Below, piece after piece: positions 13,023-60,071 of a stretch of DNA of 64,000 nucleotides. A program made the position numbers and the translations under genes. The DNA is from Ilyonectria destructans (Eukaryota; Ascomycota; Sordariomycetes; Hypocreales; Nectriaceae): contig JAHEWK010000020.1 of assembly GCA_020740775.1 (NCBI GenBank), positions 930,001 through 994,000 of the forward strand, given 5' to 3'. How positions within the stretch are numbered: position 1 is the stretch's first letter; the number at the start of each line of letters is the position of its first letter. The notes beneath the pieces were generated by a model. That model was not told the origin of the DNA. It saw only the letters and a list, made by a program, of their open reading frames with translations, and searched no databases.

Positions 13023-13769
13023 TTAATCCTTCCGTTTCATACGTCGGACAGCAAATGTCGTGGGGATTTCTGTCCCTTTGAAGCGGTTGGAGTGTGCGGG
13101 TGGGAGTGTCCCAGCAACATCAGTGTCGGAGAGTCGAGCCTGATCATTCCCAAAGCGCTGAGACATCGACTCCAGGGTTACCCTTATGGACTCACCAACT
13201 CATTGTATGAGCCCGGAAGTGCCAGAGTTTTGGACCTGGCTTGATCCTGGGTCCGGAAGGGGTTGGAATCCGGGTTGAAGCGAGATTTTAGTTTAAGAAC
13301 AAAAACAACATCGTCCTTGGCTATGGTGGATGGCTTCACTAGACTCATTTAAGAGGGAGGTTACTGCGCTAGGTCGCTGGTGACCGGGAGCGGGATTACT
13401 GCGGTAATCCTCTCTAGGCTCACGACGCTGCTCGTCATCGCGAGTTGCAGATGGGTTGGGCAACTGGGCTTTCATTGCGGTGCAGGTGCGTTGCGATCGT
13501 GATAATAGCATAGTGAAGGTGTTTAGTGAATGAATTAGAAAGAATTAATTCATATTATCAGAACAAAGTTCCTAATATCGCGTTGTGCGTACTGTATCTA
13601 TGTGACACCAAACAGCTCGATCGGAACCCATTTTGCACCTGAAGCTTGAAGCAGGATATTAGACTGGCAAAGGTCACCGCGCGGGCCCGCAGCCAGTCCG
13701 CGGTACATATTCCATGGCGACTCAAAGTACCCCGATGACTAAGGAGAAGAGCACCTAAACCCAAAACGG
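13023..13769. other. no recognisable gene
   Basis: This stretch between the dead integrase-core transposase and the LINE has only short frames without recognisable domains. I see no promoter or RNA gene. Confidence 0.55.
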
Positions 13770-13792
13770 GGTTTTGCAACAGTGACCCCTAT

Positions 13793-16700: not shown

Positions 16701-17384
16701 GGCAGTACTCAAAGCGCATCGACAAGGCGCTGCCAGGCAAGCACACCCGTGCACTATACGACTCGCTAAAAAGAAAAGAATCGGACGTGATAGCCCAGCT
16801 TCGGACCGGGATGATGCGACTGAACAGTTATCTTCACAGGATAGGGGCAGCGGAATCGGACATATGCGATTGTGGGCAAGCAGCAGAGACGATTGAGCAC
16901 TTCCTCTTCCGATGCAAAAAGTGGACAATGCAACGGGAAGTCATGTTTAAATGCTCACGAACAAAGATTGGGAATTTGTCATTCTTCTTGGGAGGAAAAG
17001 CTGCGTCGGATGACGAAAAATGGAGGCCAAACATGCAGGCCGTGAGTGCGGCAATCAAATTTGCTATCGCGACAAACAGGCTCGATGCGGACCAGCGGCA
17101 TCGGCAAACTAACCTCTAGCGTGCGACTCTACTAACAAAAAGCAGCCTCGATTTTGGCAGACCGTGCTTCAGCTGCTGAAGATAGGATGCTGAACACTTG
17201 CAGAATTTGGCCTTCAAGCAGGCCTGTCATGGAACAAGCAGCGACGAGGTTGAGCAGCAAGCGATGGGACGACGATCCGTGGGGCTTGGGGTGTCAGGTA
17301 CCAAATGTTCTGAAACGTGAACTAGATTGTGTCAAGGCCCTATAGGGACTTCCCTCCGGGCGAAATAAAATCCATCCATCCGTA
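13793..17384 (+). mobile_element. 5'-truncated Tad-like LINE
   Basis: The fragment begins inside the endonuclease domain of ORF2 and ends after a 3' untranslated part that closes with ATAAAATCCATCCATCC, a repeat-type tail. ORF1 and most of the endonuclease are absent, as is usual for LINE copies truncated during reverse transcription. Codons upstream of the first ATG (from about 13791) stay in frame with the protein, so the truncation point is the left inverted repeat. Confidence 0.85.
13865..17119 (+). CDS. LINE ORF2: partial endonuclease, reverse transcriptase, RNase H-like, zinc finger
   Basis: The open frame has 1084 codons. It starts in the last part of an exonuclease-endonuclease-phosphatase domain (STIDLVLATSE, HGSDHRAI). 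The reverse transcriptase spans roughly residues 270-560, with AWRPISLLSTLGK, SFDVKGAYNGV, LPQGSPLSPVSF and the catalytic AFVDDYSAW. An RNase H-like region follows near residues 780-890. At the end CDCGQAAETIEHFLFRC forms a CCHC zinc finger. The RNase H part lacks the usual aspartates: ATSSSKKGG replaces a TDGS-type start and MTSNRSAV replaces TDN, while the TAEL glutamate is kept. No internal stop is present. The protein cannot be a full ORF2 because the endonuclease is cut. The ATG at 13865 is only the first available one. Confidence 0.88.
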   Translation: MMNEHGLCSLLPRGTTTWQGPDKESTIDLVLATSELADEMVTCALHPTDHGSDHRAIQTIFDIAMPERITTQRLLFKNAPWTLIGARVEDNLRPLPWAVDVQTQTDQLMRVVIEAIHELTPRAQPPPYAKRWWTKDLTRLRRAYTFWRNQARAQRRAGQARPDLERRAKEAAKEYHDAIRSQKKAHWDDFLAEDVNIWKAAKYLEPSKDTMGDKVPPLKRGNGFMTKDKAEQAEELLGTFFPPLPARIEDEGVRPQRKAVPMPGLTLEEIEEKVMAAKPWKAPGEDGLPAMVWRQLWPVVKYRVLALFNASLRDGIVPRQWRSAKIIPLKKPDKGDYTVAKAWRPISLLSTLGKIMEAVVAERISYAVEAYGLLPANHFGARKRRSAEQALLLLQEQIYKAWRARKVLSLISFDVKGAYNGVCKERLLERMKARGIPDRLVRWIDAFCSGRTASMVVNGYTSEQRELPQAGLPQGSPLSPVSFLFFNADLVQRRIKAEGGSIAFVDDYSAWVTGPTAEANRAGIQSIINQALEWERRSGATFEADKTTVIHFTRVAVRNSDRSFWIKENEVKPKNSAKILGVVMDVGLRYQEHMARAAAKGLTAAMCLRRLKMLSPRVARQLFVATVAPAMDYASNVWTHARRAREAAWLNKAQLVGAQAITGAFRTVATAVAEAEASIQTVEERHRQAATRFCINLRTLPKTHPLAALKNKASKRFISPMQKIVSAVERVHTERMEVIHEYALPPWTSRIPVVGEDDLAKTAKTLNDVKGIIIATSSSKKGGIVGMGGVARNATRNSAGEVVASYSVTLGPGDEQNPYTAELAAIAMALECMPPRLPFQDVTVMTSNRSAVEVIRRPRQQSGQCTIRQIYDRTKCLRKRGCSVRLMWVPAKAEGFTLGPMAKAAAQRATKAECMVKAPSYQARSTPLRLALLQQRQCGRLPEGVGQYSKRIDKALPGKHTRALYDSLKRKESDVIAQLRTGMMRLNSYLHRIGAAESDICDCGQAAETIEHFLFRCKKWTMQREVMFKCSRTKIGNLSFFLGGKAASDDEKWRPNMQAVSAAIKFAIATNRLDADQRHRQTNL

Positions 17385-18506: not shown

Positions 18507-18867
18507 AAGAGGACATTGCAGCCTTAGACCGTGGTCGGCAAGCAGTATACGACAATCGCTACCATGTGATACCCCTCCACCGATAAGACCCCTCTACCGA
18601 TAAGCAAAAAAAAAAGTTTCCCCATACAAAATGCCCAATTTTACTTATACGGTGCTTGGCCAAAATTGAAGTTATTTACATGAAACAAGCTGTGTCTTAT
18701 TGAGAGTTTCATGTTGTTTCGTATTATGCTATTCCTTTTTACATTATATCAGCGGTTTGGTCGCATGGCACTAATGTAAAATTTCTATCAATGCCTCCTC
18801 CACGAACAGTCCTCCCCAAAGCTTATAGGATTTTTATCTACACCAGCCTTCCATAATCGCCTTGAAA

Positions 18868-20803: not shown

Positions 20804-20961
20804 AATATATTGAATTCTAACCTGAGCACTGGAAATGAGTTTATTTTTGCTAATTTTGTTAAGTTTTTCTCATGAGGTTGAAAAAATGCATTTTGTATGG
20901 GGAAACTTTTTTTTTGCTTATCGGTAGAGGGGTCTTATCGGTGGAGGGGTATCGCATGGTA

Positions 20962-22803: not shown

Positions 22804-23134
22804 TACCATGCCCCACCACCCTTTCAGACGCCCCACCCTTTCGGACGCCCCACCCTTTCGGACGCCCCACCCTTTCGGACAGCAAAAAATCCACCAGCCC
22901 ATATAAAACTCAACCACATCACTTATAGAGATTAGGCTCAAATTTGAAGTTATTCGCAAGCCGTCGCCTTCAACGATTATAAAAATGACTGAAGATCATT
23001 ATACGCAATTTGTTTGGTTGATTGGAATCTGGGGAACGTGCGCACCCTGTCCTGCAATATTGGCTGACAGCCACCAAATTTCCTCCTGAATTCACTCAAC
23101 TCTCTTTCTCTCAATCTTCAACAATGTCATCACA

Positions 23135-25065: not shown

Positions 25066-25221
25066 AGGAGTCAATTCTCTACAAAATGGTATATTTCATT
25101 TGTGTATAACCTCAAAATTGATTAGCTACCTGGTCAATTCAATTGGTGGGTTTTTGGTGGGAATGGCCTCAGCTGTTAGTCCGAAAGGGTGGTGCGTCCG
25201 AAAGGGTGGTGGGGCATGGTA

Positions 25222-26345: not shown

Positions 26346-29336
26346 CTAACCAGGAGCTTCCCCCGAGAACCGGAACAACAAGACCCGTCCCGAGGCACAG
26401 CCGAGAGCGACAGTCGATGCCGCGATCGCTGACATCGCCGACATCACTGGACGATACTCTGACGGGAGCCAGAGCAGGTTCCGACCCTGATATGTGATCC
26501 ATACATTATCAGCACTGATGCCATAGCCTTGTCGTTGGCATGGGTGATACAGAATACTGCGTGCAGACGGTGTAGCGGGTGGCGAGGGCGAGGCCACGCT
26601 CAGGTCGAAAGTGCCAGCATCTGTAAGAAGACGAGCGCCGGTCTCGTCGAAACCGATCGTATAGAGGCTCCTGCCTACATCAAGCGTTGCCTGGCAGTGG
26701 CCCGTCGCGGCATCCCAGACCTTGACGGTCTTGTCATATGACGCCGATGCGAGGCGCTTGCCATCGGGCGAGAAGGCCACCGGCCGAACCCAATCACTAT
26801 GGCCCTCGAGCGTCGCCTGGCAGTGGCCCGTCGCGGCATCCCAGACCTTGATGGTCTGGCCGTCTGACGCCGATGCGAGGCGCTGGCCATCGGGCGAGAA
26901 GGCCACCGAGGGAATCTCATTCCTATGGCCCTTGAGCGTCGCCTGGCAGTGGCCCGTCGTGGCATCCCAGACCTTGACGGTCTTGTCGTCTGACGCCGAT
27001 GCAAGACGCTCGCCATCGGGCGAGAAGGCCACCGACCGAACCCAATGGCTATGGCCCTCGAGCGTCGCCTGGCAGTGGCCCGTCGCGGCATCCCAGACCT
27101 TGACGGTACTGTCGTTTGACGATGATGCGAGGCGCTGGTTATTGGGCGAGAAGGCCACTGACCGAACCTCATTCCTATGGCCCTTGAGCGTCGCCTGGCA
27201 GTGGCCCGTCGTGGCATCCCAGACCTTGACGGTACTGTCGGATGACGCCGACGCGAGACGCTGGCCATCGGGCGAGAAGGCCACCGAGTAAACCGCATTC
27301 CAATGGCCCTCGAGCGTCGCCAGACATGCATCCCAATCCTCTGCTGTAGCCGGTTTAGTGACAATCCAATTTGGCTCTTCTCCTTCGAACAGTTTTCTCG
27401 TCATGCTCCGCCTAGGACTAAATATAAGTGCCGACGCATACGCCTGAAGAGGCGCGTTCCCTATCGCCCACCAGTGTGATAGGATGAAGCGGCGTGCATC
27501 TCGAATGAGGTCGAATAAACGGGACTTATTGGACTCTTCCTAATAGACACTAATTAGCGCATCGGTGCCGTACGATGATCAAGTCAATTCGCCTACAAGT
27601 AATGCCTCCAGCTTCGTCATCGCAACTACTCCTTCAGGCATGCCTCGGAGAAGACTCAGCGCCTCGAGCCAGTAGAGGTACTTCTTGCTGAGGAATTTAT
27701 AAACTGTACCGTCGTCACGCAGGTCGTCGATAGGCCTGGAAGTTCCGTGCGATATGGCATCTCTCAGGTGGTCAACCCAGTAGAAACACGAGTACCGTGC
27801 CGGGGCTAATGGGTCCGGTTCAGGCTGGCGGGCGTCGTCGATAGAGATGCCGGGATGTTGTAAGTCGTACATATCACGTCGTAAGGTTTCCTTCATGATT
27901 TGTATCGATTTCAAGAATATAGTATGATGTGCGGCTGTGAATCCATGCTGGAAAATTTTACCTGACATCTCGGTCGTCAGGAAATCTTTGACGGACTGAT
28001 GAATGAGATACACATGGCCATTCCGGATTGTGAGAAATGAGCCGCACATGTCTATCACCCTTTGAATATATAAGCTATCGCGGGTTATGTGCGCAGGTAA
28101 ACCCGACAGCAGTCCGAGCGCGCACAACAGAAGTGGCTGGTAGGCGATGGTTGCTATTGAGAGAATGAGGCGACAGAGCTCCCTGTATTCTGGCTGTAGT
28201 TTTTTAATCTGCTCCATCATTCGGTGGTACAGAGGCAGCAAACCGGATGGCCTTTGCTCAAGCAAGCCTAGCATATCCCAGGGCTGAATGCTTCTAAGTT
28301 CTTGTGCGACCAGGGCGGCCCAGAGAAAGGTTCCATCGGCTTTGCGTTGCATCTCGTGCCGAACATTATCTCGTAATGTCTTGTCACCTTTTAGCGAGAC
28401 AAGCTCGGAGATTTTATAATCGATGAAGGTGTTGATGGCCTGAGTGACGTGCTGCGCATTCAGCTCGAGACTGAGTCTTGTCTGAGAGTCGTTAAGCCGC
28501 AGGGCCTGCTCGATGTCTGGCCGGTTGCGGCTGGACACGATCCATTTGATGTGAGCAAACTCGGATGCGCCCCGGACAATAAAGTCTAGGAGCTGTGGCA
28601 AACCCGTCTTGCATTCATCTAGAGCGTCGATAACCAGGTAGCACCTCTTGGCACGGCGATCACGGAGCATATTAGCTAGAGCCTCGGATAAGGTATAGAA
28701 CGCATTTGTATCCTCGAAGAGTCGTCGACCTGCATGGTCGTACCTGTCCTGGATATGCGAGATGAGAGATGGTTGTTGACATAACAAAAGGTATATCAGG
28801 CCTCGCAGTACAGTTGTGGCGTGGTTGAGTCGGGAATCGGTGCCTTGACAGAAGAAAAACGACACGGGATGTGAGTGTGTTGGCAGCAGTGACATTTTCT
28901 TGAATCGACGCGATATCTTTACTGCAACGTCACCGAACAGACCTCCCTTGCTTGTGTTGGGTATTTCCGCCGGTGACTGCGATATCTCGTTGATGATACC
29001 GCAGAGTAGCATTGTCTTGCCCTTGCCCGCGTCGCCTTTGATCCAGAGCAACCGGCTGTCTCTGTCGTCTCGCCATCGCCGAAAGTCCTTGTGATCTAGA
29101 ATCCACTTATACGAGTCCTTAAGAAGGCCACCCTTTGTCTGCTCGATGCGCGTCTTGTCGTCGCGGGGGTCGGTCAATCGTAGATCGGCAAGGCATCGAT
29201 TGCGGTTCGGTTCGTTGTAGTTGTGGACTTCAGTGTAGTTGTTTCCAACCTGAATTCTGCTTTGGCCATCGGCGTTCACAACCCGGGCGAAGTTTGTTGG
29301 TCGTGTCGTGTACTCATCGCTATTCACAAACGCCAT
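26346..29336 (-). CDS. nwd2: NLR 1: prion-motif, NACHT and WD40 protein (NWD2 type)
   Basis: Exons 29336-27597 and 27539-26346 give 977 residues, joined over a 57-nt GT-AG intron with a GCTAATT branch site. Just inside the N-terminus GQSRIQVGNNY resembles the HET-S prion repeats (the r0 motif of NWD2). The NACHT domain follows: LLWIKGDAGKGKTMLL is the P-loop, CYLVIDALDEC the Walker B, VKWIVSSRNRP sensor 1-like. Exon 2 starts with the linker LFDLIRDARRFILSH and has five 42-residue WD40 repeats that are nearly identical except at a few surface positions, then a C-terminal cap. I chose ATG 29336 because it leaves a 193-bp divergent promoter and puts the motif near the N-terminus; the frame stays open to an ATG at 29474. 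In Podospora this protein type senses a ligand through WD40 and nucleates HET-S amyloid. Confidence 0.9.
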
Positions 29337-29529
29337 TGTGGCATTGGTGATGACGAGAATTGTTTTCGTGCCAAAGCTGAAGCAGGATCGGAGTTGGTTG
29401 CGGACGGCTTTTAGGCGAACCACTGAGATGCATGCTTTCGTCACCATCTCCTCACGTGGCGCAGCCTGCACCAAAAGCTCCCGTCAGACGCAAAGAAAAA
29501 TGGGCATCGATTCACCTCACACGACCAGC
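29337..29529. promoter_or_regulatory. divergent HET-S / NLR 1 promoter
   Basis: The head-to-head genes are separated by 193 bp between start codons. The second, degraded pair has a 187-bp gap, and the bases just before both HET-S start codons match (CCTCACACGACCAGC). Short shared control is inferred from this spacing. Confidence 0.6.
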
Positions 29530-31514: not shown

Positions 31515-34500
31515 CTAACGAAGAGCGTTCCCCGTGAACCGGAATAGTAAGACCCGTCCCGAGCTACAGCCAAAGGCGACAGTCGATGCCGCGATCGCTG
31601 ACTTCTCTGGACGATACTCTGACGGGATCCAGAGCAGGTTCCGACCTTGATACGTGATCCATACGTTATCAGTACTGATGCCATAGCCTTGACGTTGGCA
31701 TGGGTGATACAGAGGACCGGATGCAGACAGTGTAGCGGGTGGCGAGGGCGAGGGCGAGGGCACGCTCAGGTCGAAAGTACCAGCATCTGTAAGAAGACGA
31801 GTGCCGGTCGCGTCGAAACGGACAGTATAGAGGCGCCTGCCTACATCAAGCGTCGCCTGACAGTGGCCCGTCGCGGCATCCCAGACCTTGACGGTCTTGT
31901 CGTCTGACTCCGATGCAAGACGCTGGCTATCGGGCGAGAAGGCCACCGAGTGAACCCTGTTGCTATGGCCTTCGAGCGTCGCCCGGCAGTGGCCCGTCGC
32001 GGCATCCCAGACCTTGACGGTCCTGTCGGATGACGCCGATGCGAGACGCTGGCCATCGGGCGAGAAGGCCACTGACCGAACCCTATTGCTATGGCCTTCG
32101 AGCGTCGCCTGGCAGTGGCCCGTCGCGGCATCCCAGACCTTGACGGTGTGGTCGTATGACGCCGACGCGAGGCGCTGGCCATCGGGCGAGAAGGCCACTG
32201 ACCGAATCCAATCGCCGTGGCCCTCGATCGTCGCCTGGCAGTGGCCCGTCGCGGCATCCCAGACCTTGACGGTGTGGTCGGATGACGCCGATGCAAGACA
32301 CTCGCCATCGGGCGAGAAGGCCACTGACCGAACCCAATCGCCATGGCCCTCGAGCGTCGCCTGGCAGTGGCCCGTCGCGGCATCCCAGACCTTGACGGTG
32401 TGGTCGTATGACGCCGACGCGAGACGCTTGCCATCGGGCGAGAAGGCCACTGACCGAATCCAATCGCCGTGGCCCTCGAGCGTCGCCTCGCAGTGGCCCG
32501 TCGCGGCATCCCAGACCTTGACGGTGTGGTCGTATGACGCCGACGCGAGACGCTTGCCATCGGGCGAGAAGGCCACTGACCGAATCCAATCGCCGTGACC
32601 CTCGAGCGTCGCCTGGCAGTGGCCCGTCGCGGCATCCCAGACCTTGATGGTCTTGTCGTCTGACGCCGACGCGAGGCGCTGGCCATCAGGCGAGAAGGCC
32701 ACCGACTGAACCATAGAACCATGGCCCTCGAGCGTTGCCAGACATGCATCCCAATCCTCTGCTATAGCCGGCTTAGTGACAATCCAATTTGGCTCTTCCC
32801 CTTTGAACAGTTTTCTCGTTATGCTCTGCCTAGGACTGAATATAAGTGCTGACTTATATGCCTGAAGAGGTGCATTTCCTATCGCCCACCCGTGTGACAG
32901 GATGAATCGGCGTGCATCTCGAACGAGGTCGAATAAACGGGATCTGTCGGACCGTTCCTAGTAGAGACACTAATCAGCACATCCGTTACATACGATGATA
33001 AAGCCAATGCGCGTACTAGCAATATCTTGAGCTTTGTTATTGCAACCACTCCTCCCGGCATGCCTCGGAGAAGACCGAGCGCCTCGAGCCAGTATAGGTA
33101 CTTTTTGCAGAGAAACTGATGGACTGTGCCTTCATCGTGGAGGTCGTCGATAGACCTCGAAGTCTTGTGCGAGATGGCATCGCTTAGGTGATCAACCCAG
33201 TAGATGCATGAGTACCGTGCCGGGGCTAACGGGTCTGGGTCAGGCTGTTTGACTTTGTCGATGGGAAATCCAGGGGCGCATAAGCCGTACATGTCGCGTC
33301 GCAGTGACTTGGACATCACCAGTAGCGATCTCGAGAAGATGGTATAGTGGCCCTCTTCCATCCCAGAAGGGAAGATTTCACTGGATGCCTTCGTAAGTAA
33401 AAAATCCTTCGCAGACTGATGGACGAAGTAAATGGTACGGTCGCGAAGAGTTAGGAACGATCCGCAAAGCCCTATGATCTCCACCAAGGAGTCGAGGTCA
33501 TCGGAAATATCCTCTAGTATGTCGACAAAAGACGTGAGTTCGTGTAGGGTAATGGGTTGATAGACAATTGTCAGGAGGGCAAGTATGCCCATGCATAGGT
33601 CAGAATTGTCCGAATTGCGAATTTGCTCCATCATTCGCTTGTAAAGAGAATCAAGTCCAGGAGGAAACGCATTTAACTTAGTGAGAGTGTTCCATCGTGG
33701 GATCTTCTGGAGATCTTGACAGGCTAAGGCCACCCAGAGGAACGTATCGTTTGCATTTAAGGATAGGTGATGCTGAACGGCATCTCGTGTTTTATCGTCG
33801 TATCTTTTCAGCCGCGCCAATTGATCCACCTTATGCCTGATGTATATGCTGACAGCAGCGGAGATGGACTTTCCGTTTAGCTGGAGACACAGCTTAACTT
33901 TCTGTCCTGCTGATTCCAGCTGCTCCTCGATGTTCGGCCAGTTCCGACTGGAGACGATCCACTTGACATGAGGAGATTCAGATGACTTCTCGACAATCAA
34001 GTCGAGAAGTTCCGGCAGATTCGCCACGCATTCGTCGAGCGCGTCGATGATCAAGAAGGTGCTCTTTAAGTTCGGATCTTGCAGAATGTTTGCAAAGATC
34101 TCGGCCAAGGCCACCCAGGCATTCACGTCCTCGAAGAGGCCTTTGCCCGCGTGGTCATACTTTTTCCGTACGTGCGGGATGAGCGATGGCTGCTGGGCGA
34201 CAATGAGGTAGATGAGGCCGCGGAGCACAGCCGTTGCGTTGTTGATGCGCGAGTCAGTGCCCTGGCAGAAGAAGTAGGACAACAGGTTCGTGGTCTCCTT
34301 CTTCAACTCGTTGATAATGCCGCAGAGCAACATGGTCTTGCCCTTGCCAGGATCGCCCTTAATCCAGAGCAGCCGGCTCTGTTCGTCGTTGCGCCATTGT
34401 TGGAAATCGGCGTTGTTGAGAATCCAGCAGTACGAGTCTTCTAGCAGGCCGCCCTTGGTCTGCTCGATGCGCGTCTTGTCGTCGCGGGGATCGGTCGATC

Positions 34501-35698: not shown

Positions 35699-35885
35699 GC
35701 TGGTCGTGTGAGGTAAATCGACGCGGGCTTTTCTGGAGCTTTGTTGGAACAAGCTGCACCATGTGAGGGGATGGTGCGGCTGACGAAAGAACGTGTCCCA
35801 GTGGTCCATTAAGCGCTGCCACGGCCAACTGTGAGCCGCCAGCTGGTTCGGGCTGCGAACCTCCCTCACCATCGACAATGCCAGA
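35699..35885. promoter_or_regulatory. divergent promoter of the degraded HET-S / NLR 3 pair
   Basis: 187 bp separate the two start codons, close to the 193 bp of the intact pair. The bases before the HET-S-side ATG (CCTCACACGACCAGC, minus strand) are identical to those of the intact pair, showing that the whole promoter-gene pair was duplicated. Confidence 0.55.
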
Positions 35886-37791
35886 ATGGCATGGGCAAAC
35901 CGTGACGACTGTACAATGAACTCCGTTGGGGACCTCAGGGCCGACGGCCATGGCAGAGTTCATGTCGGAAACCACATTGAAGTCCACAACTACAACGAGC
36001 CGAACCGCAATCGATGCCTTGCCGACCTACGATTGACCGACCCCCGCGACGACAAGACGCGCATCGAGCAGACAAAGGGCGGCCTTCTCAAGGACTCGTA
36101 TAAGTGGATTCTGAATCACGGGGACTTTCGGCGATGGCGAGACGACAGAGAGAGTCGGTTGCTCTGGATCAAAGGCGACGCCGGTAAGGGCAAGACGATG
36201 TTGCTCTGCGGTATCATCAACGAGCTATCGCAGTCACGGGCGGAAATACCCAACGCGAGCAAGGGAGGTCTATTGGGTGACGTTACGATGAAGATATCCC
36301 GCCGATTCAAGAAAATGTCGCTCTCGTCAACACACTCACATCCCGTGTCATTTTTCTTCTGTCAAGGCACTGATTCGCGACTTAACCACGCCGCAGCTGT
36401 ACTGCGAGGCCTGATATACCTTTTGCTATGTCAACGACCATCCCTCATCTCGCACATCCAGGACAGATACGACCATGCAGGTCGACGACTCTTTGAGGAC
36501 ACAAACGCATTCTATACCTTGTCCCAGACTCTAGCCAGTATGCTCCGCGATGGCCCTGCGAAGGGTTGCTACCTGGTTATTGATGCTCTAGATGAATGTG
36601 AGACAGGTTTGGCACAGCTCCTACACTTTATAGTCCAGAGCGCATCTACGTCTGCTTACGTCAAATGGATCGTGTCAAGCCGAAACAGACCCGATATTGA
36701 GCAGCAGCTGCATTGCACTGCTTTAAAAACGAGGCTAAGCCTTGAACTAAACGCACACCATGTCGCCCAGGCCATCAATACGTACATCGTCCATAAAGTC
36801 GCGCACCTCGTATCGCTGAGGGATAACAAGTCACTACAAGACCAAGTTCGGGATGAGATGCGACACAGAGCCGATGGAACCTTCCTCTGGGTGGCTCTCG
36901 TCGCACAGGAACTTCAGAACGTTCGGAGCTGGGATGTCTTAAGCGTTCTCAAGCAGATGCCAGCCGGCCTGGTGCCACTCTACCGCCGAATGATGAATCA
37001 TATTCAACAACTGAGGCCTCGAGATAGCGAGTTCTGCCGCCTTGTTATTTTGACGGCAACTGTCGCTTACCGCCTCCTCCACTTGCGTGAGCTGGGTGTG
37101 CTATCCGGTTTGCCTGGAAATGTCTCCAGTGACCTTCAGTCTGTGGTAGATATGTGTGCCTCGTTTCTTACGATCCGGGATGACTATATCTATCTCATTC
37201 ACCAGTCCGTCGAAGATTTCCTGACGAAGGAAGTGTCGACTGCAATTTTCCAGCATGGATTCGCAGCCGCACATCATACTATATTCTTGAAATCGATACA
37301 GATCATGTCTGAAGCATTGCGGCGTGATGTGTACGACTTACACCATCCCGGCACCTCTATCGACGACATCCGCTCTCCTAAACCGGACCCGTTAGCCCCA
37401 GCACGGTACTCATGCATTTATTGGGTTGACCACCTAAGCGATGCCATCTCGCACAAGACTTCAACGCCTATCGACGACCTCTACGACAACAGCACAGTCC
37501 ATCAATTTCTTAACAAGAAATACCTCTACTGGCTCGAGGCGCTTAGCCTTCTCCGAGGCATGCCGGAAGGAGTGGTTGCGATGACAAAGCTTAAGACATT
37601 GCTAGTAGGCAGATTACTTTATCGTATGGAACCTATAGAACTGATGTGCTAATTAATGTTTCTATTAGGAAGGGTTCGATAAGTCCTATTTATTGGACCC
37701 TACAGATTATTCTCCGGCGATTCCGCCAGAATCCGCCATACAAATTGGTGAACTTGGTTCGTGCGTTCCTGCAGAATCGGTTGGCGGCTAA
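35886..37791 (+). pseudogene. NLR 3: prion-motif and NACHT, WD40 exon lost
   Basis: Exon 1 (35886-37604, 573 codons) is intact. Near the N-terminus GHGRVHVGNHIEVHNY is the r0 motif, LLWIKGDAGKGKTMLL the P-loop and CYLVIDALDEC the Walker B. The start may be 35886 or the ATG at 35916. The intron at the position used by NLR 1 and 2 is kept (37605-37668, GTAGGC to TATTAG). The second exon retains only about ten family-like codons (from 37669) before unrelated sequence. The spliced frame would stop at TAA 37789-37791, inside the left end of the Mutator-like element, giving about 613 residues and no WD40 sensor. It may be a decoy, a constitutive seed or simply dead. Confidence 0.8.
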
Positions 37792-48944: not shown

Positions 48945-51900
48945 GAACACGCGGCGGCTGTGAGAGAATGGGAGACAACCGGTAAAAAGAGAATGGATGG
49001 AGATCCATTCATAGCAGACGTTAGGGTGAATGGAACGGACTTCGTACCATCCCTCGTCGACTACGGTTGCCTCTGCTACGGTGCGGTTAGCAAACGGACC
49101 TTCCAATCTCTTCAGCTGCCACATATACCTGTTCAACCTCGCATCCTCGAGAATGCAGCAGGAGACGGCAAGGAGGTTAAGATCGATAAGATCACTTACT
49201 TATCGATCGACCTAGACGGACACCAACAGCGCCGTGTATTTATGTACGTCATTGACGACCTTAACTGGGATATGATTTTAGGCAAACGATGGATGGAAGA
49301 TCAAGATGTTCACATTCATGCGAAGGAAAGATACTTGGAGATTGGAACCAGTGGAGCTCAAGTACAAGACCGACAACGCTATCGGCCCCCTCGACTAGAG
49401 GTCTCGAAGGTGATGGCCGCTGCCTTTCTAGGCGACGTGCGCCGCAATAGACGTACAGGCGGCGTTGGAGTTTATGCCGTCACGATGTCGGACATCGACA
49501 AAGCCTTGAGACCGAAACCAAAGATCGACCCAGTGGAGAAGTTGCCACCACACTACCACAAGTGGTTACAAGCCTTCTCTCGACAACTGGCCAACCAGTT
49601 ACCTCCCCACAGGCCAGGCGTTGACCTGAAGATCGAAGTCCTACGAGACGAACACGGCCGCGAGAAACCCCTACCCTGGGGTCCGCTTTATGGCATGTCT
49701 CGCGAAGAGCTATTGGTACTACGGAAGACACTTACAGAGCTTCTCGACAAGGAGTTTATCAGAGTTAGCAGTTCACCCGCGGCGGCACCGGTTCTCATGG
49801 TGAAAAAGCCTGGTGGAGGCGTTCGCTTTTGTGTGGATTACCGAGGACTGAACAACATCACCAAGAAGGACCGCTATCCGCTGCCCTTACTCAACGAAAC
49901 GCTACGCACTGTGGCAAAGGCAAAGTGGTTCACGAAGCTAGATGTTATAGCAGCATTCCACAAGATCAGGGTCGCCCCCGGAGACGAAGAAAAGACGGCC
50001 TTCAGAACACGCTACGGATCTTTTGAATGGCTGGTAGTCCCATTTGGACTGACAGGTGCACCCGCAGCCTTTCAACGGTATATCAACAGCGTGCTCCAAG
50101 ACTACCTAGACGATTTCGTGTCAGCATACATCGACGACGTGTTGATCTTCTCTTCTGGAAGCATTCAAGACCACCGCGACAAAGTCGGCAGGGTCCTCCA
50201 ACGCCTAATGGATGCTGGGCTACAGCTAGACATCAGCAAGAGCGAATTCGAAGTCAAGACGGTGAAATATCTCGGGTTCATTATCGAGGCGGAGAACGGG
50301 ATCCGAGTCGATCCTGAGAAGGTCAAGGCTGTCAAGGAATGGACTACGCCAATGAACGTAAAAGCCGTTAGAGCCTTTATCGGTTTCGCGAACTTCTATA
50401 GGATTTTCATGCCTGAGTTCTCAGAGATAGCAGAGCCGCTGATACGGCTAACGAAAAAGGACGTACCCTTCCGTTGGGACGACCTATGCGAAGAAGCCTT
50501 TGAGAAGCTTAAGGACCTGTTGATCACGGCCCCTATTCTAGCTCATTTCCACCCGGAGAGAGAGACTATCGTGGAGGCAGATTCTTCAGGATTTGTCACT
50601 GGGGGTGTCCTCTCCCAGCGAGACGACGAAGACGGACTATTACGGCCTGTCGCCTATTTCTCGAAGAAACACTCGCCAGCAGAGGTCAACTACGCTATTC
50701 ACGACAAGGAACTGCTTGCTATTGTGAGGTGTCTGGAGCAATGGGAACCAGAGCTGCGTGCTGTGAAGAATTTCAGGATCCTCACGGACCATCAGAATCT
50801 GAAATACTTCTATTCGGAGAGAAGATTAACGGAAAGACAAGTACGATGGTCGGAGTTCTTATCCAGGTTCCATTTCACACTCGAATGGAGACCCGGAAAG
50901 AAGGCTGGACTGCCAGACGCGCTCTCTCGACGAGACCAAGATATTCCAGCCGACTACTCGGACGAGCGGCTCAAGGCACGCATTATGAGGCTCTTTCAGG
51001 ACGACCATCTTAGAAGGGTACGCATCTCGACAGTTTCCACCAACACTGAGGGCGCCCTGGAGTTTGATTTCGAAAAGGATATCAGGCTATTCGAGGACCA
51101 GGAATTGCAGCAACTTTGGGACGCCGCACGCCGAGAGGACAAGCTCTACCAGGAACTCACGAAGCTAGTAGCGAATGGAGAGAAGAACTTACCGACACAG
51201 TTGCAAAAGGAGAAGGTTGTGAGTATCTCAGAATGCTCACTGGATGACAGAGGTCTCCTATGCTTCCGGAATCGTGTCTGGATACCCAACTCTGAGCCGC
51301 TGCGCACGAAGATTATTCAAGCAACACACGACTCCCACATTACCGGGCACCCGGGGAGAGACCTTACGTACTCTATTCTGTCGAGACGCTTCTTTTGGCC
51401 GGGCGCAGCTAGCGAAGTACGCCAATTCGTGCCTAACTGTGAGGTCTGCGGAAGGAACACCATTTGGAGAGACACGAAGAGAGGGCTCCTGAAGCCATTA
51501 CCCATTCCGCAACGAATATGGAGCGAGGTTACTATCGACTTCATTACGGACCTCCCACCATCGGGACGGGATGGCGCGACGAACTGCATGGTAGTCACAG
51601 ACCGGCTTACCAAAGGCGTCGAACTCGAAGGCATGAGCGATATCTCCTCGGAAGCGGTTGCTAAGAGACTCTTCGAACGGCACTACCCGGTCCATGGTAT
51701 TCCAACAGCCATAACCAGTGACCGTGGGCCCCAGTTTGTCAGCGACATGTGGAAGCACTTCTGCAAACTGCTGCAGATCGAGCAGCGGCTATCGACGGCG
51801 TACCACCCACAGACGGATGGAGCGACGGAACGAATGAACCAAGAGGTTGAGAAGATCCTACGAATATGGACAAACTATCTCCAAGAGAATTGGCTAGACC

Positions 51901-52634
51901 TGCTACCAATAGCCATGGCAACAATCAACGAGAGGGACGCGGCCTCTACCGGCCTAAGCCCGTTCTTCTTCATGCACGGCTACCACAACGAGCCAATTCA
52001 GCTAGTCGAGGATCGAAGAGCAGAAGATGCGAGGGAGGGCGAGGTTATGGCAGAAGACTTCATCCAGAGACTTCAGGACGCCACAGAGTTTGCGCAAGCT
52101 GCAATAGCTATGGCCCAAGAGATACAGCAAGCCCAAGCCAACAGGCACAGAACTGCCTCGCCCCGCTACAAGCCTGGAGACTGGGTATACCTTAATCTGA
52201 AGAACGTCAAGACGTCACGGCCTTGTAAGAAGCTGGACTGGCTACATGCAAAATACCAAGTGGTCGAGGAGATTAGCCCACACGCCTACAAGTTAGACGT
52301 GCCCGGACGCATACACCCGGTATTCCATGTTGATTTGCTCCGGCCCGTCCCTGACGACCCGCTACCATCACAGCAGGTCGATCACGAGAGCGCCCCACCA
52401 GTGCTGGTGGACGGTCAAGAGATGTACCTCGTTGAACGCATCCTCGATGAAAAGAAGGAAGGCACGCACAAGAAGGTGCTCGTGAAGTGGGTGGACTATT
52501 CGAGACCCACGTGGGAGCATCTCAGTGCTGTACGGCATACGGATGCATGGAAACAATGGACAAAGCGGAAGAAGAAGAGAGTCAACTTCGAAAATCATCG
52601 TGAGATACACGCCAACTCTGGAGGAGGGGGGTAA
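48945..52634 (+). CDS. pol: Gypsy Pol: protease, RT, RNase H, integrase, chromodomain
   Basis: The frame continues directly from the gag UAG with no other stop and no ATG before about 48990, for roughly 1229 codons. The protease shows LVDYGCLCYG where DTG or DSG is usual. The reverse transcriptase has RFCVDYRGLN, LDVIAAFHKI and the catalytic AYIDDVLIF. RNase H has VEADSSGFVTGGV and RILTDHQNLKYF. The integrase has the zinc-binding HDSHITGHPG ... CEVCGR and the DDE residues in VTIDFITDLP, ITSDRGPQF and GATERMNQEVE. The C-terminus has a chromodomain (YLVERILDEKKEGTHKKVLV, then KWVDYSRPTWEHL), which in chromoviruses directs integration to chromatin. The stop codon TAA touches the 3' LTR, and the purine tract lies inside the last codons. 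Confidence 0.95.
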   Translation, partial: EHAAAVREWETTGKKRMDGDPFIADVRVNGTDFVPSLVDYGCLCYGAVSKRTFQSLQLPHIPVQPRILENAAGDGKEVKIDKITYLSIDLDGHQQRRVFMYVIDDLNWDMILGKRWMEDQDVHIHAKERYLEIGTSGAQVQDRQRYRPPRLEVSKVMAAAFLGDVRRNRRTGGVGVYAVTMSDIDKALRPKPKIDPVEKLPPHYHKWLQAFSRQLANQLPPHRPGVDLKIEVLRDEHGREKPLPWGPLYGMSREELLVLRKTLTELLDKEFIRVSSSPAAAPVLMVKKPGGGVRFCVDYRGLNNITKKDRYPLPLLNETLRTVAKAKWFTKLDVIAAFHKIRVAPGDEEKTAFRTRYGSFEWLVVPFGLTGAPAAFQRYINSVLQDYLDDFVSAYIDDVLIFSSGSIQDHRDKVGRVLQRLMDAGLQLDISKSEFEVKTVKYLGFIIEAENGIRVDPEKVKAVKEWTTPMNVKAVRAFIGFANFYRIFMPEFSEIAEPLIRLTKKDVPFRWDDLCEEAFEKLKDLLITAPILAHFHPERETIVEADSSGFVTGGVLSQRDDEDGLLRPVAYFSKKHSPAEVNYAIHDKELLAIVRCLEQWEPELRAVKNFRILTDHQNLKYFYSERRLTERQVRWSEFLSRFHFTLEWRPGKKAGLPDALSRRDQDIPADYSDERLKARIMRLFQDDHLRRVRISTVSTNTEGALEFDFEKDIRLFEDQELQQLWDAARREDKLYQELTKLVANGEKNLPTQLQKEKVVSISECSLDDRGLLCFRNRVWIPNSEPLRTKIIQATHDSHITGHPGRDLTYSILSRRFFWPGAASEVRQFVPNCEVCGRNTIWRDTKRGLLKPLPIPQRIWSEVTIDFITDLPPSGRDGATNCMVVTDRLTKGVELEGMSDISSEAVAKRLFERHYPVHGIPTAITSDRGPQFVSDMWKHFCKLLQIEQRLSTAYHPQTDGATERMNQEVEKILRIWTNYLQENWLDLLPIAMATINERDAASTGLSPFFFMHGYHNEPIQLVEDRRAEDAREGEVMAEDFIQRLQDATEFAQAAIAMAQEIQQAQANRHRTASPRYKPGDWVYLNLKNVKTSRPCKKLDWLHAKYQVVEEISPHAYKLDVPGRIHPVFHVDLLRPVPDDPLPSQQVDHESAPPVLVDGQEMYLVERILDEKKEGTHKKVLVKWVDYSRPTWEHLSAVRHTDAWKQWTKRKKKRVNFENHREIHANSGGGG
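52620..52631 (+). promoter_or_regulatory. polypurine tract
   Basis: GGAGGAGGGGGG lies immediately before the TAA stop and the 3' LTR start at 52635. It is in the correct place to prime plus-strand synthesis and overlaps the glycine codons at the Pol C-terminus. Confidence 0.85.
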
Positions 52635-55194: not shown

Positions 55195-56505
55195 CTATTC
55201 TGGGAACTCCTTACAACGGACGGAACTTTCATAATCCATCTCTGCGCCAGCCATCTCCTTTCGAATTACTATATATATCAGTAGTAGTCTGCCAAATTCT
55301 CCATCCTATCAAGCAGGGGCACAGGATCCACTTACATCCAGGACCACGACCAGCAGGTAGCATCTTGCCTAATCAACTGCATCCACTTACGCACTACACC
55401 ACGAGCAGCAGTTAGCAACTTGCCTAATCAGCCCGTCAAGCAAGGGCACAGGATACACTTACAAACTGCACCACGACCAGCAGTTAGCATCTTGCCTAAT
55501 CAGCCCGTCAAGCAAGGGCATAAGATATACTTACTTGCTGCACCACGACCAGCGGTTAGCATCTTGCCTAATCAGCTCGTCAAGCAACGGCATAGGATCT
55601 ACTTACAATCTACACCGCGACCAGCAATTAGCATCTTGCCTAATCAGCCCGTCAAGCAAGGGCACAGGATACACTTACGCACTGCACCACGACCAGCAGT
55701 TAGCATCTTGCCTGATCAGCCCACTAAGCAACGGCATAGGATACACTTACAGGCTGTACCATGACTAGCAGTTAGCATCTTGCCTAATCAGCCTATCAAG
55801 CAAGGGCACAGGATACACTTACGCCCTACACCACGACCAGCAGTTAGCATCTTGCCTAATCAGCCCGTCAAGCAAGGGCACAGGATACACTTACGCTCTG
55901 CACCACGACCAGCAGTTAGCAACTTGCCTAATCAGCCCGCCAAGCAAGGGCACAAGATACACTTACAGGCTGCACCACGAGCAGCAGTTAGCAACTTGTC
56001 TAATCAACCCACCAAGCAAGGGTACGGGATACACTTACAAACTGCACCACGACCAGCAATTAGCATCTTGCCTAATCAGCCCGTCAAGCAAGGGCACAGG
56101 ATATACTTACACACTGCACCACGACCAGCAGTCAGCAACTTGCCTAATCAGCCCATCAAGCAATGGCACAGGATAAACTTACTTGTTGCACCACGACCAG
56201 CAGTTAGCATCTTGCCTAATGAGTCCATCAAGCAACGGCACAGGATCCACTTACTTGCTGCACCACGACCAGCGGTTAGCATCTTGCCTAATCAGCCCAT
56301 CAAGCAAGGGCATTGCATCCACTTACATCCTGCACCATGACCAGCAGTTAGTAAACTCTCAGTATACAGGTAGAAAGGGTCTTTGTGAACGTACGACTTG
56401 TTGAATTCCGGGCACTCTGACCTGGGCGCCTCCTGGCTTGCGAGGACTTGGGAGTGCAAAAGCCAGAGAGGGCATAAGCATGCCAAAGAGCACCAAAAAT
56501 CTCAT
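55195..56505 (-). CDS. micro-exon secreted peptide gene, left copy
   Basis: Unrecognised gene type. Exon 1 (56505-56395) encodes 37 residues starting with a signal peptide (MRFLVLFGMLMPSLAFA) and ends at a GTACGT donor. Then follow 3-nt exons, each between CAG or TAG and GTAAG, at 56327 (D), 56255 (Q), 56111 (C), 56039 (F), 55967 (P), 55895 (S), 55823 (G), 55751 (P), 55679 (C), 55607 (I), 55535 (Q), 55463 (F) and 55391 (C). Positions are the low coordinate and all lie at exact 72-bp spacing. Units at 56183 and 55336 have CAA or CTG in place of the acceptor and are probably skipped. The last exon (55305-55195, 37 codons) contains EMDYESSVRC and ends EFPE-stop. The predicted product is 86 residues with four Cys. 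Splicing is inferred from sites only. A secreted peptide or effector is a guess. Confidence 0.72.
55336..56329 (-). repeat. tandem 72-bp intron/one-codon-exon array, left copy (15 units)
   Basis: Fifteen units, 14 of them at 72-bp spacing and the last at 55. On the minus strand each has GTAAG, a mid block (GGGCTGATTAGGCAAG), GCTAACTGCTGGTCG and YAG, then three variable bases. The bases between acceptor and donor vary while the 69-base intron is nearly constant. Confidence 0.92.
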
Positions 56506-57821
56506 ATTAACAAAGGTGGTATAGTAGAAAGGGATTTTACGTGATTCAATAATAGAGTAAATATATAAAGGGTTATAAAAGTTGGATGTCGACTTTATAA
56601 AATGGGGACTTGTTGTACTTTATATGGATTTGAGAAAGTGAATGTCTTGCCCGTCCAGTGCATTCCAATTGGCCTGTTGGCCAGGAACAGGTATCAGATG
56701 TACATGCAGCCCTTAGAGATGACCTATGGATATGACCCTGCCCATTAATACAAGCATCGCAAGCAGTACCTGCCTACATCAGATGAACAGCGCTTTCCCA
56801 CGTATAAGGGTGGCCATAGAACTTGATCCTCTGTTTGCGTATTAGTTAACTTTGTTTATTTTGTTTAACTGCCGTACTGACATGATGTCATAAACCATAT
56901 TCTCAACGTAAATTTGACTTTGTTGAGGACTGAATAGGTGTAGTTTTGCGGGGAATACTTGTTAAACTTTACAACTACCTATCGGGGTCTCCAAAGCTTC
57001 GCTAATTCGGCTATCTTCTGGCTTCCAATTGCGTAACACATTCCCAAATCGCTGGGTTCGGACACGCTTGGGTTTGACACGGACGTCGCCAACATTGTGG
57101 GCAGATTTCCCACTGGCCTTAGGCACTATTATTCCCGTGGAATTCGACCCGAATTCTAGGAGGTTTCGGCCAATGGAGGCGCGGGACTCGGGGCTTGGCG
57201 CGGACCTATTCTTCACGACTTCCTTCTCGGCGGAGTCCGACGCTCATTGGCCCCCCAGCAGAAACCCAAGCGGGTCCGAACCTAGCGATAAGCTTCGCTA
57301 ATTCAGCCATCTTCTAGCTTCCAATTGCGTAATTGGAGACCCCGATAGGTAGTTGTAAAGTTTAACAAGTATTCCCCGCAAAACTACACCTATTCAGTCC
57401 TCAACAAAGTCAAATTTACGTTGAGAATATGGTTTATGACATCATGTCAGTACGGCAGTTAAACAAAATAAACAAAGTTAACTAATACGCAAACAGAGGA
57501 TCAAGTTCTATGGCCACCCTTATACGTGGGAAAGCGCTGTTCATCTGATGTAGGCAGGTACTGCTTGCGATGCTTGTATTAATGGGCAGGGTCATATCCA
57601 TAGGTCATCTCTAAGGGCTGCATGTACATCTGATACCTGTTCCTGGCCAACAGGCCAATTGGAATGCACTGGACGGGCAAGACATTCACTTTCTCAAATC
57701 CATATAAAGTACAACAAGTCCCCATTTTATAAAGTCGACATCCAACTTTTATAACCCTTTATATATTTACTCTATTATTGAATCACGTAAAATCCCTTTC
57801 TACTATACCACCTTTGTTAAT
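56506..57821. promoter_or_regulatory. shared divergent upstream region of the two micro-exon genes
   Basis: From the two start codons back to the centre (56506-56994 and 57333-57821) the sequence is an inverted copy of itself, so both genes have the same proximal promoter, including an AT-rich stretch with TATAAAG-type motifs about 120 bp before each ATG. The central 338 bases differ and include 43-bp direct repeats. A short frame at 57029-57301 has no recognised domain. Confidence 0.6.
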
Positions 57822-60071
57822 ATGAGATTTTTGGTGCTCTTTGGCATGCTTATGCCCTCTCTGGCTTTTGCACTCCCAAGTCCTCGCAAGCCAGGAGGCG
57901 CCCAGGTCAGAGTGCCCGGAATTCAACAAGTCGTACGTTCACAAAGACCCTTTCTACCTGTATACTGAGAGTTTACTAACTGCAGGTCATGGTGCAGGAT
58001 GTAAGTGGATGCAATGCCCTTGCTTGATGGGCTGATTAGGCAAGATGCTAACCGCTGGTCGTGGTGCAGCAAGTAAGTGGATCCTGTGCCGTTGCTTGAT
58101 GGACTCATTAGGCAAGATGCTAACTGCTGGTCGTGGTGCAACAAGTAAGTTTATCCTGTGCCATTGCTTGATGGGCTGATTAGGCAAGTTGCTGACTGCT
58201 GGTCGTGGTGCAGTGTGTAAGTATATCCTGTGCCCTTGCTTGACGAGCTGATTAGGCAAGATGCTAACTGCTGATCGTGGCGTAGTGTGTAAGTGTATCC
58301 TGTGCCCTTGCTTGATGGGCTGATTAGGCAAGACGCTAACTGCTGGTCGTGGTGCAGTGGGTAAGTAGATGCAATGCCCTTTAACAGGCTGATTAGGCAA
58401 GATGCTAACTGCTGGTCGTGGTGCAGACAGTACGTGTATCCTATGCCGTTGCTTGACGGGCTGATTAGGCAAGATGCTAACTGCTGGTCGTGGTGCAGAG
58501 AGTAAGTGGATGCTGTGTCCTTTCTTAATAGGCTGATTAGGCAAGATGCTAACTGCTGGTTGTGGTGCAGAGAGTAAGTGGATGCTGTGTCTTTTCTTAA
58601 TAGGCTGATTAGGCAAGGTGCTAACTGCTGGTCGTGGTGCAGCCCGTAAGTGGATGCTGTGTCCTTTCTTAATAGGCTAATTAGGCAAGGTGCTAACTGC
58701 TGGTCGTGGTGCAGCCAGTAAGTGTATCCTGTGCTGTTGCTTGACGGGCTGATTAGGCAAGTTGCTAACTGCTAGTCGCGGTGTAGTGTGTAAGTGTATC
58801 CTGTGCTGTTGCTTGACGGGCTGATTAGGCAAGATGCTAACTACTGCTGGTGGTGCAGGACGTAAGTGGATATAATGCCATTACTTGACGGGCTAATTAG
58901 GCAAGATGCTAACTGCTGGTCGTGGTGCAGGGTGTAAGTGGATCCTATGCCCTTGCTTGACGGGCTGATTAGGCAAGATGCTAACTGCTGGTCGTGGTGC
59001 AGGGTGTAAGTGGATCCTATGCCCTTGCTTGACGGGCTGATTAGGCAAGTTGCTAACTGCTAGTCGTGGTGCAGCATGTAAGTAGATCCTATGCCGTTGC
59101 TTGACGGGCTGATTAGGCAAGTTGCTAATTGCTAGTCGTGGTGCAGTGCGTAAGTGTATCCTGTGCCGTTGCTTGACGGGCTGATTAGGCAAGATGCTAA
59201 CTGCTGTTCATGATACAGCCCGTAAGTAGATCCTGTGCCCTTGCTTGGCGGGCTGATCAGGCAAGTTGCTAACTGCTGCTCATGGTGCAGCCCGTAAGTG
59301 GATCCCATGCCGTTGCTTGACGGGCTGATTAGGCAAGTTTCTAACTGCTGTTCGTGGAGCAGAGAGTAAGTGGATCCTGTGCCGTTGCTTGATGGACTCA
59401 TTAGGCAAGATGCTAACTGCTGGTCATGGTGCAGCCCGTAAGTGGATGCTGTGTCCTTTCTTAATAGGCTAATTGGGCAAGGTGCTAACTGCTGGTCGTG
59501 GTGCAGCCCGTAAGTGTATCCTATGCCCTTGCTTGACGGGCTGATTAGGCAAGTTGCTAACTGCTGCTCGTGGTGTAGCCCGTAAGTGGATCCCGTGTCC
59601 TTTCTTAACGGGCTGATTACGCATGATGCTAACTGCTGCTCGTGGTTCAGGGAGTAAGTGGATCCTGTGCCCTTGCTTGACGGGCTGATTAGGCAAGATG
59701 CTAACTGCTGGTAGTGCGTAAGTGTATCCTGTGCCCTCGCTTGACGGGCTGATTAGGCAAGTTGCTAACTGCTGGTCGTGGTGCAGATTGTAAGTGGATG
59801 CAATGTCCTTGCTTGGCGGGTTGATTAGGCAAGATGCTAACTGCTGGTCGTGGTGCAGTGCGTGCTTACGCGTAAATTGATTTGACGGGCTGATTAGGCA
59901 AGTTGCTAACTGTTGGTCGTGGTCCTGGATGTAAGTGGATCCTGTGCCCCTGCTTGACAGGCTGGAGAATTTAGCAGAATACTACTGACATATATAGTAA
60001 TTCGAATGGAGATGGCTAGCACAGAGATGGATTATGAAAGTTCCGTCCGTTGTATGGAGTTCCCAGACTAG
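57822..60071 (+). CDS. micro-exon secreted peptide gene, right copy
   Basis: Unrecognised gene type. Exon 1 (57822-57932) is identical to the left copy. Then 3-nt exons begin at 57998 (D), 58070 (Q), 58214 (C), 58286 (C), 58358 (W), 58427 (T), 58499 (R), 58571 (R), 58643 (P), 58715 (P), 58787 (C), 58859 (D), 58931 (G), 59003 (G), 59075 (H), 59147 (C), 59219 (P), 59291 (P), 59363 (R), 59435 (P), 59507 (P), 59579 (P), 59651 (G), 59715 (C), 59787 (I) and 59859 (C). Units at 58142 and 59928 lack an AG acceptor, as do their left-arm counterparts. The last exon (59961-60071) has EMDYESSVRC and ends EFPD-stop. The predicted product is about 99 residues, with six Cys and many Pro in the core and one Cys in the last exon. 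Phase is zero throughout. An alternative first donor (GTCAGA, 57906) and a nearer first acceptor (57985) are possible. Confidence 0.75.
57998..59930 (+). repeat. tandem 72-bp intron/one-codon-exon array, right copy (28 units)
   Basis: Twenty-eight units, nearly all exactly 72 bp apart (exceptions of 69, 64 and 69). Each is GTAAGT, a middle part, GCTAAC, 10-14 bases, CAG or TAG, and three variable bases. Most introns contain an in-frame TGA or TAA at their ninth codon (GCTTGA or TCTTAA), so retaining one would end translation. Confidence 0.94.

Follow-up and report, generated by a model that had tools for sequence, protein, structure and literature searches.

Results

Structure of the predicted gene 1

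The window, which is the whole 64,000-nucleotide stretch of DNA analysed here, lies at positions 930001-994000 on contig C13 of the 71.7-Mb genome (74 contigs) of Ilyonectria destructans, a nectriaceous Sordariomycete. Two predicted genes were located in it, and their features are listed in Table 1. The first exon of gene 1 started with a hydrophobic stretch up to AFA, which was signal-peptide-like by eye, and ended in phase 0. Its 37-residue peptide was found in two copies by genome search, one per window gene. Exon 1 was followed by a tandem array, in which the typical unit consisted of GTAAGT, approximately 40 bases, CTAAC, YAG and three bases, and then the next GTAAGT. Tandem-repeat measurement gave a period of 72 bases and 27.8 copies.

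Table 1. Positions of the predicted genes, arrays and duplication arms (window positions unless a locus is given)
Feature	Position	Strand	Remarks
Gene 1 (predicted)	57822-60071	+	contig C13
Gene 1 exon 1	57822-57932	+	37 codons, ends in phase 0
Gene 1 array	57933-59861	+	tandem introns GTAAGT...CTAAC...YAG with 3-nt exons between them
CAA codon (Q), third unit of gene 1	58142-58144	+	acceptor CAA instead of CAG
61-nt intron and TGC codon	59654-59717	+	8 bases shorter; branch motif, TAG acceptor and 3-nt exon kept
Last intron of gene 1 (predicted)	59862-59960	+	weak donor GTGCTT, acceptor GACAG, contains the degenerate 28th unit
Terminal exon of gene 1 (predicted)	59961-60071	+	36 codons and stop
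Gene 2 (predicted)	56505-55195	-	head-to-head paralogue of gene 1
Gene 2 exon 1	56395-56505	-	identical to gene 1 exon 1
Gene 2 array	55391-56394	-	13 of 14 codons with AG acceptor
Last intron of gene 2 (predicted)	55306-55390	-	donor GTAAGT, acceptor GATAG, degenerate unit inside
Terminal exon of gene 2 (predicted)	55195-55305	-	36 codons and stop
Left arm of inverted duplication	56111-56994	-	common upstream region, exon 1, first four introns
Spacer between arms	56995-57332	.	338 bases, imperfect ~45-base direct repeat at both ends (by eye)
Right arm of inverted duplication	57333-58216	+	beyond the arm, identity drops to 141/164 bases
NACHT-ankyrin receptor gene with array	L041:4327-7620 (contig C73)	-	36 single-codon exons (predicted), phase 0

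A preliminary description of this DNA had reported 28 tandem units with 69-nt introns between two terminal exons of 37 codons. The array was found as described, with 27 codon units and a degenerate 28th. Most introns were 69 nt long, and the exceptions were the first intron (65), 58361-58426 (66) and 59654-59714 (61). Exon 1 had 37 codons, and the terminal frame had 36 codons and a stop. An AG acceptor was present in 26/27 units, the exception being the CAA codon in the third unit, which is predicted to be skipped in splicing. A CAA unit without an AG acceptor was also present in gene 2. The 26 codons with an AG acceptor encoded D Q C C W T R R P P C D G G H C P P R P P P G C I C, where Pro (7), Cys (6) or Gly (3) accounted for 16 residues. 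The donor after the codons was GTAAGT in 25/27 units and GTACGT in 1/27. The last codon, TGC at 59859-59861, had CAG directly before it and was followed by a weak GTGCTT.

Gene 2 and the inverted duplication

The gene 2 codons with an AG acceptor encoded D Q C F P S G P C I Q F C, with one more Q lacking the AG. All 14 codons were directly followed by GTAAGT. Gene 1 had 27 units versus 14 in gene 2, and nearly all codons differed after the first four.

The two arms of the inverted duplication were identical at 883/884 bases. No difference was found in the 600 bases of the upstream region and exon 1, and one in the 284 bases that hold the first four introns and codons. Identity was 94% over 273 bases in the 3' part of the duplication. 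This difference between the arms and the 3' parts suggests recent gene conversion in the palindrome. The direct repeat at the spacer ends is perhaps a trace of duplication or insertion.

The terminal exons of the two genes were identical at 102/111 bases, and 9/9 differences were nonsynonymous. In the bases beyond the terminal exons, 6/126 differed. There was no sign of purifying selection in the predicted terminal exon, which may be under positive selection or noncoding. The 3' end is uncertain because of these nonsynonymous differences, because the last donor of gene 1 is weak and because another acceptor would give another frame. With GTAAG as an alternative acceptor, the terminal frame would be 12 codons long in gene 1 and longer in gene 2. 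Read-through from TGC at 59859 to a nearby stop is another possible end for gene 1. The gap from branch to acceptor in the last predicted intron of gene 1 was long.

Genome searches with the gene ends and the intron sequence gave no copy beyond the window pair, and 43/43 matches of the window intron fell at this locus. Exon 1 and both terminal exons matched no Pfam family. An exact-word search in two runs gave no candidate homologue of the window genes among 5.8 billion proteins, so that their exons rest on one genome.

The region around the gene pair was repeat-rich. Tandem, near-identical repeats of 126 bases (42 residues) were located at 26683-27321 and 31849-32739, and NACHT-domain ORFs lay near them at 27582-29483 (-) and 35835-37649 (+). 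We take the 42-residue repeats to resemble the WD repeats of fungal NACHT receptors. Two reverse-transcriptase ORFs were present at 13739-17116 (+) and 48945-52631 (+), one of them with an endonuclease domain (non-LTR type) and the other with RNase H and integrase (Ty3-like order). Tandem repeats of 17 bases, inverted approximately 2.3 kb apart, were observed at 18571-18604 / 20917-20950 and 22816-22880 / 25179-25211, and they looked like transposon ends.

Variability of codon and intron columns

The units of both genes were cut at GTA[AC]GT, which gave 42 units. Thirty-six of them were exactly 72 bases long, 33 of these were distinct, and 6 of other length were excluded. The three codon columns ranked first, second and third in variability among the 72 columns. 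Their entropies were 1.87, 1.83 and 1.72 bits, whereas the intron columns had a mean of 0.32 and a maximum of 1.42. Among the 33 distinct units, the pairwise difference per base was 0.712 in the codon columns versus 0.146 in the non-signal intron columns. The ratio was 4.89 (bootstrap 4.17-5.82), with 4.55 for gene 1 alone and 6.20 for gene 2 alone. The codon value of 0.712 was close to the random limit of 0.75. When pairs of distinct units with 1-3 differences in the 69 intron bases were compared, 20/22 differed in the codon, on average at 1.86 of 3 bases. No stop codon occurred among the 33 distinct units versus 1.36 expected, and avoidance was not significant (P 0.25).

Among the 41 codon units of both genes, 39 had an AG acceptor and 40 had GTA[AC]GT next. 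The CTRAY motif kept a constant distance to the acceptor in 37/38 rows with an AG acceptor and was nearer in the 61-nt intron. The third-last base of the acceptor was C in 30/36 and T in 6/36, and nothing else. The donor columns were constant partly by construction, since the units had been cut at GTA[AC]GT, and the p value of 0.002 for splice-signal conservation includes them. Without them, the pairwise difference was 0.042 in the branch and AG columns, neither of which had guided the cutting, versus 0.148 in the remaining intron columns (permutation p 0.029). This change left the odds on our main reading unaffected, because those odds derive from the codon columns and from the second array. 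Donor, branch and acceptor were thus nearly constant while the codon columns were near-random.

A second array in a NACHT-ankyrin gene

The genome was scanned for three successive GTAAG donors with AGNNN before the second and third and 35-65 bases between, a scan whose scope was GTAAGT-type arrays in one 71.7-Mb genome. It gave 66 matches, and the reversed pattern gave 0. The window genes accounted for 29 matches, one place on contig C73 for 34, and short minisatellites on contigs C11 and C67 for 3. The C67 match was a 61-bp repeat of 3.2 copies. The C11 match was a 51-bp repeat of 1.9 copies, which had donor- and branch-like motifs but, by eye, no series of one-codon units.

The C73 array contained 36 single codons. 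Its introns were mainly 71 or 62 bases long and were unrelated in sequence to the window introns, and its units were mostly 74 or 65 nt. The array sat in phase 0 between ankyrin-coding exons on the sense strand. In the ORF upstream, NPHP3_N and Ank were above the Pfam cut-off, and NACHT was just below it (E 2e-5). The exon downstream, TPLLRAVERGD..., extended the ankyrin repeat (Ank, E 5e-7). The codons encoded P, R, W, L and D only, using six codons in varying order. As in the window genes, the codon columns were the three most variable, with 0.643 versus 0.094 and a ratio of 6.86 (35 units).

A mobile intron family was rejected, since both intron sequences proved confined to a single locus each, with 36/36 matches of the C73 intron at its own. 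Six related NACHT-ankyrin loci, out of 106 genome matches, had no such array, and L041 was the sole carrier among the seven scanned. Single spaced motif pairs in L042 and L044 were chance-like.

The public gene model EDB80DRAFT_751365 of Ilyonectria destructans matched the C73 gene with 99% identity over 79% of the query. Its C-terminal residues were W, four L and seven D, followed by intron read-through. The four L and seven D corresponded, in order, to the 11 codons after the 62-base introns of the array. The public model thus already includes single-codon exons, placed there either from RNA reads or by a gene finder. As it takes up 11 or 12 of the 36 codons and its end is read into an intron, it may be a gene finder's guess.

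The preliminary description had predicted a signal-peptide-like exon, phase-zero introns, one-codon exons and a Cys/Pro-rich core. This architecture agrees with the sequence, with gene 2 and with the C73 array, the last two of which go beyond that description.

Linkage between codons and introns

If recombination inside introns swaps codons as cassettes, linkage is expected between a codon and the intron bases nearest to it, and none with those farther away. In the C73 array, the codon was associated with a length change near the 3' end of the preceding intron (p <0.0005) and with its columns 39 (p 0.0015) and 29 (p 0.0075). Columns 26 and 21 were weaker (p 0.03-0.04). In the following intron, column 9 was associated with the codon (p <0.0005), and no association was found among the tested columns from 19 on (p 0.05 to 0.97). 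In the window genes, the strongest of 36 linkage tests was column 8 of the following intron (p 0.001). Distant columns gave p 0.021 (57 of the following intron) and p 0.032 (8 of the preceding intron). That recombination within near-identical introns may add, remove and reshuffle codons with the frame kept is supported in the C73 array and weakly in the window genes. Alike introns with unlike codons, and 27 versus 14 units behind identical 5' ends, fit such shuffling. If so, selection for codon diversity best explains why homogenisation has acted on the introns but not on the codons, with a local mutation process as the alternative.

The RNA structure of the introns was also examined, and neither intron consensus folded better than shuffles (z -0.13 and 0.47).

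Discussion

Proposed mechanism

From these sequence data we propose, with a probability of roughly 0.72, that the head-to-head predicted genes contain 26 and 13 hypervariable units with an AG acceptor, and that phase-zero splicing of each unit adds a single codon to a small and likely secreted peptide, the core of which would be rearranged residue by residue. The proposed mechanism is well supported by the sequence statistics and by the independent array. Short fungal introns are recognised across the intron, so that a 3-nt exon would not need exon definition. Intron definition would govern removal of the array introns, which would probably proceed from 5' to 3'. Each 3-nt exon would join the already spliced upstream exon and need no recognition on its own, and the uniform GTAAGT donors would compensate for the unconstrained exon bases. 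Skipping of any array exon would preserve the frame, since each is a single phase-0 codon, and many peptides per gene would be possible. A natural example of skipping would be the CAA unit, which has lost its acceptor in gene 1 and in gene 2. Recombination inside the introns would reshuffle the codons, and selection for diversity would prevent codon homogenisation. Gene 1 would encode a small secreted protein whose core is rich in Cys and Pro. The product would act extracellularly in a biotic interaction, in which a Cys/Pro-rich surface that changes would be useful. The same device appears to be used in the NACHT-ankyrin receptor gene of the same genome.

Alternative explanations

Three other readings were weighed against the mechanism above. 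In one, the full-length peptide is fixed with little alternative splicing, and diversity comes only from DNA change between strains and paralogues. The uniformly strong donors agree with it, as do the codon number and identity, which differ between the paralogues. Codon-sized exons in truffle are reported as alternatively spliced in passages of the literature (PMC4986451, PMC10197012, PMC3689799, PMC9815663), which speaks against a fixed product, and we consider this reading unlikely.

It is more doubtful still that the array is an ordinary minisatellite in one large intron, with motifs from a founding intron and exon 1 spliced straight to the last exon. The period and the unit identity are of that type, and the terminal frame joins without the codons since all of them are 3 nt. 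However, the near-randomness in exactly three columns between AG and GT would be unexplained, and there would be no reason for recurrence with unrelated introns in a NACHT-ankyrin gene. In addition, the unit that is shorter by 8 bases retained its branch motif, AG and 3-nt exon.

An antisense-coded protein of 24-residue repeats, each with a single hypervariable position like those of TAL effector repeats, is highly improbable. In its favour, 72 is divisible by 3, both genes have fewer stops in the antisense than in the sense frames, with open runs reaching 229 aa (gene 1) and 191 aa (gene 2), and two antisense frames, of 861 and 864 aa, stay open across the whole C73 array. Against it, the stops per antisense frame are 10, 11 and 63 in gene 1 and 4, 4 and 32 in gene 2, the unit without 8 bases shifts the frame, the C73 units of mostly 74 or 65 nt are not multiples of 3 and put the variable bases out of register, and the C73 array is in phase between ankyrin exons on the sense strand.

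Comparison with known systems

Splicing of successive single codons, as we propose, has a precedent. Passages in the literature (PMC4986451, PMC10197012, PMC3689799, PMC9815663) describe dozens of 3-bp exons in the nank (NACHT-ankyrin) genes of Tuber melanosporum, where alternative splicing diversifies the product. For the 3-bp exons in truffle, those passages cite Iotti et al. 2012, Fungal Biology 116:261-275. The remark in the preliminary description that no gene with a long run of single-codon exons was known is overturned by this precedent. At the sequence level, the window genes and the C73 gene share with the truffle genes runs of many 3-bp exons bounded by splice signals. The C73 gene is also of the same gene type, NACHT and ankyrin, and it appears to represent, in a new lineage, a kind that is already known. 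Ilyonectria is a Sordariomycete, whereas Tuber is described as a Pezizomycete in a passage of PMC3778014. The window exons differ further from the truffle genes, as they have no NACHT or ankyrin match and exon 1 is signal-peptide-like. The window genes would work like truffle-type nank genes but are not members, their exons matching no NACHT or ankyrin model.

Schistosome MEGs have most of their coding sequence in many short in-frame (symmetric) exons, mostly of 6-36 nt, which are not known as near-identical cassettes. Short symmetric exons are predicted in the window genes, and their product may be secreted, as judged by eye, but exon 1 and the predicted terminal exon hold most of their codons. 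The exact-word search, which covers close rather than distant homology, gave no candidate of any kind, MEG proteins included. A passage in PMC5825161 describes MEG products as secreted.

Several other systems share single features with the arrays. The Xlr2 gene of Trichoderma virens has, according to a passage in PMC11121469, a functional, single regulated microexon in a filamentous fungus. It is one microexon, in contrast to the arrays found here. Bicycle genes are effector-like with many tiny exons, which are longer than the 3-nt window exons, and we know of no tandemly identical introns in them. Introners are dispersed over many genes, whereas each intron family here was at one locus (43/43 matches for the window and 36/36 for C73). 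Near-identical intron families in fungi, namely introner-like elements and stwintrons, are the subject of PMC4457414 and PMC8469720, and bicycle genes are placed in gall aphids in a passage of PMC9168663.

Among the matches listed in a search of the open-licence literature, codon-sized exon arrays were reported neither for any secreted-protein gene nor for Nectriaceae. What is new here is the orphan, predicted secreted gene type, the Nectriaceae lineage and the contrast between codons and introns.

Implications

If the genes are spliced as predicted, the variable part of the peptide is written one residue per exon, and the introns are far more conserved than the coding bases. This would carry codon-sized exon arrays beyond the immune-type receptors of truffle, into a pair of orphan genes with predicted secreted products from a distant fungal class. 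Such genes are expected to be overlooked by standard gene finders and read mappers. The arrays raise testable questions as to how the spliceosome handles 26 successive 3-nt exons and whether introns serve as a scaffold for single-codon shuffling. We tentatively suggest that fungi may have a general codon-cassette system, in which near-identical introns act as both splice units and recombination sites, and in which proteins that face other organisms, namely secreted peptides outside the cell and NACHT-ankyrin receptors inside it, are diversified residue-wise by DNA shuffling and exon skipping. If this is true, the two window genes would be the first of such a kind to encode secreted peptides.
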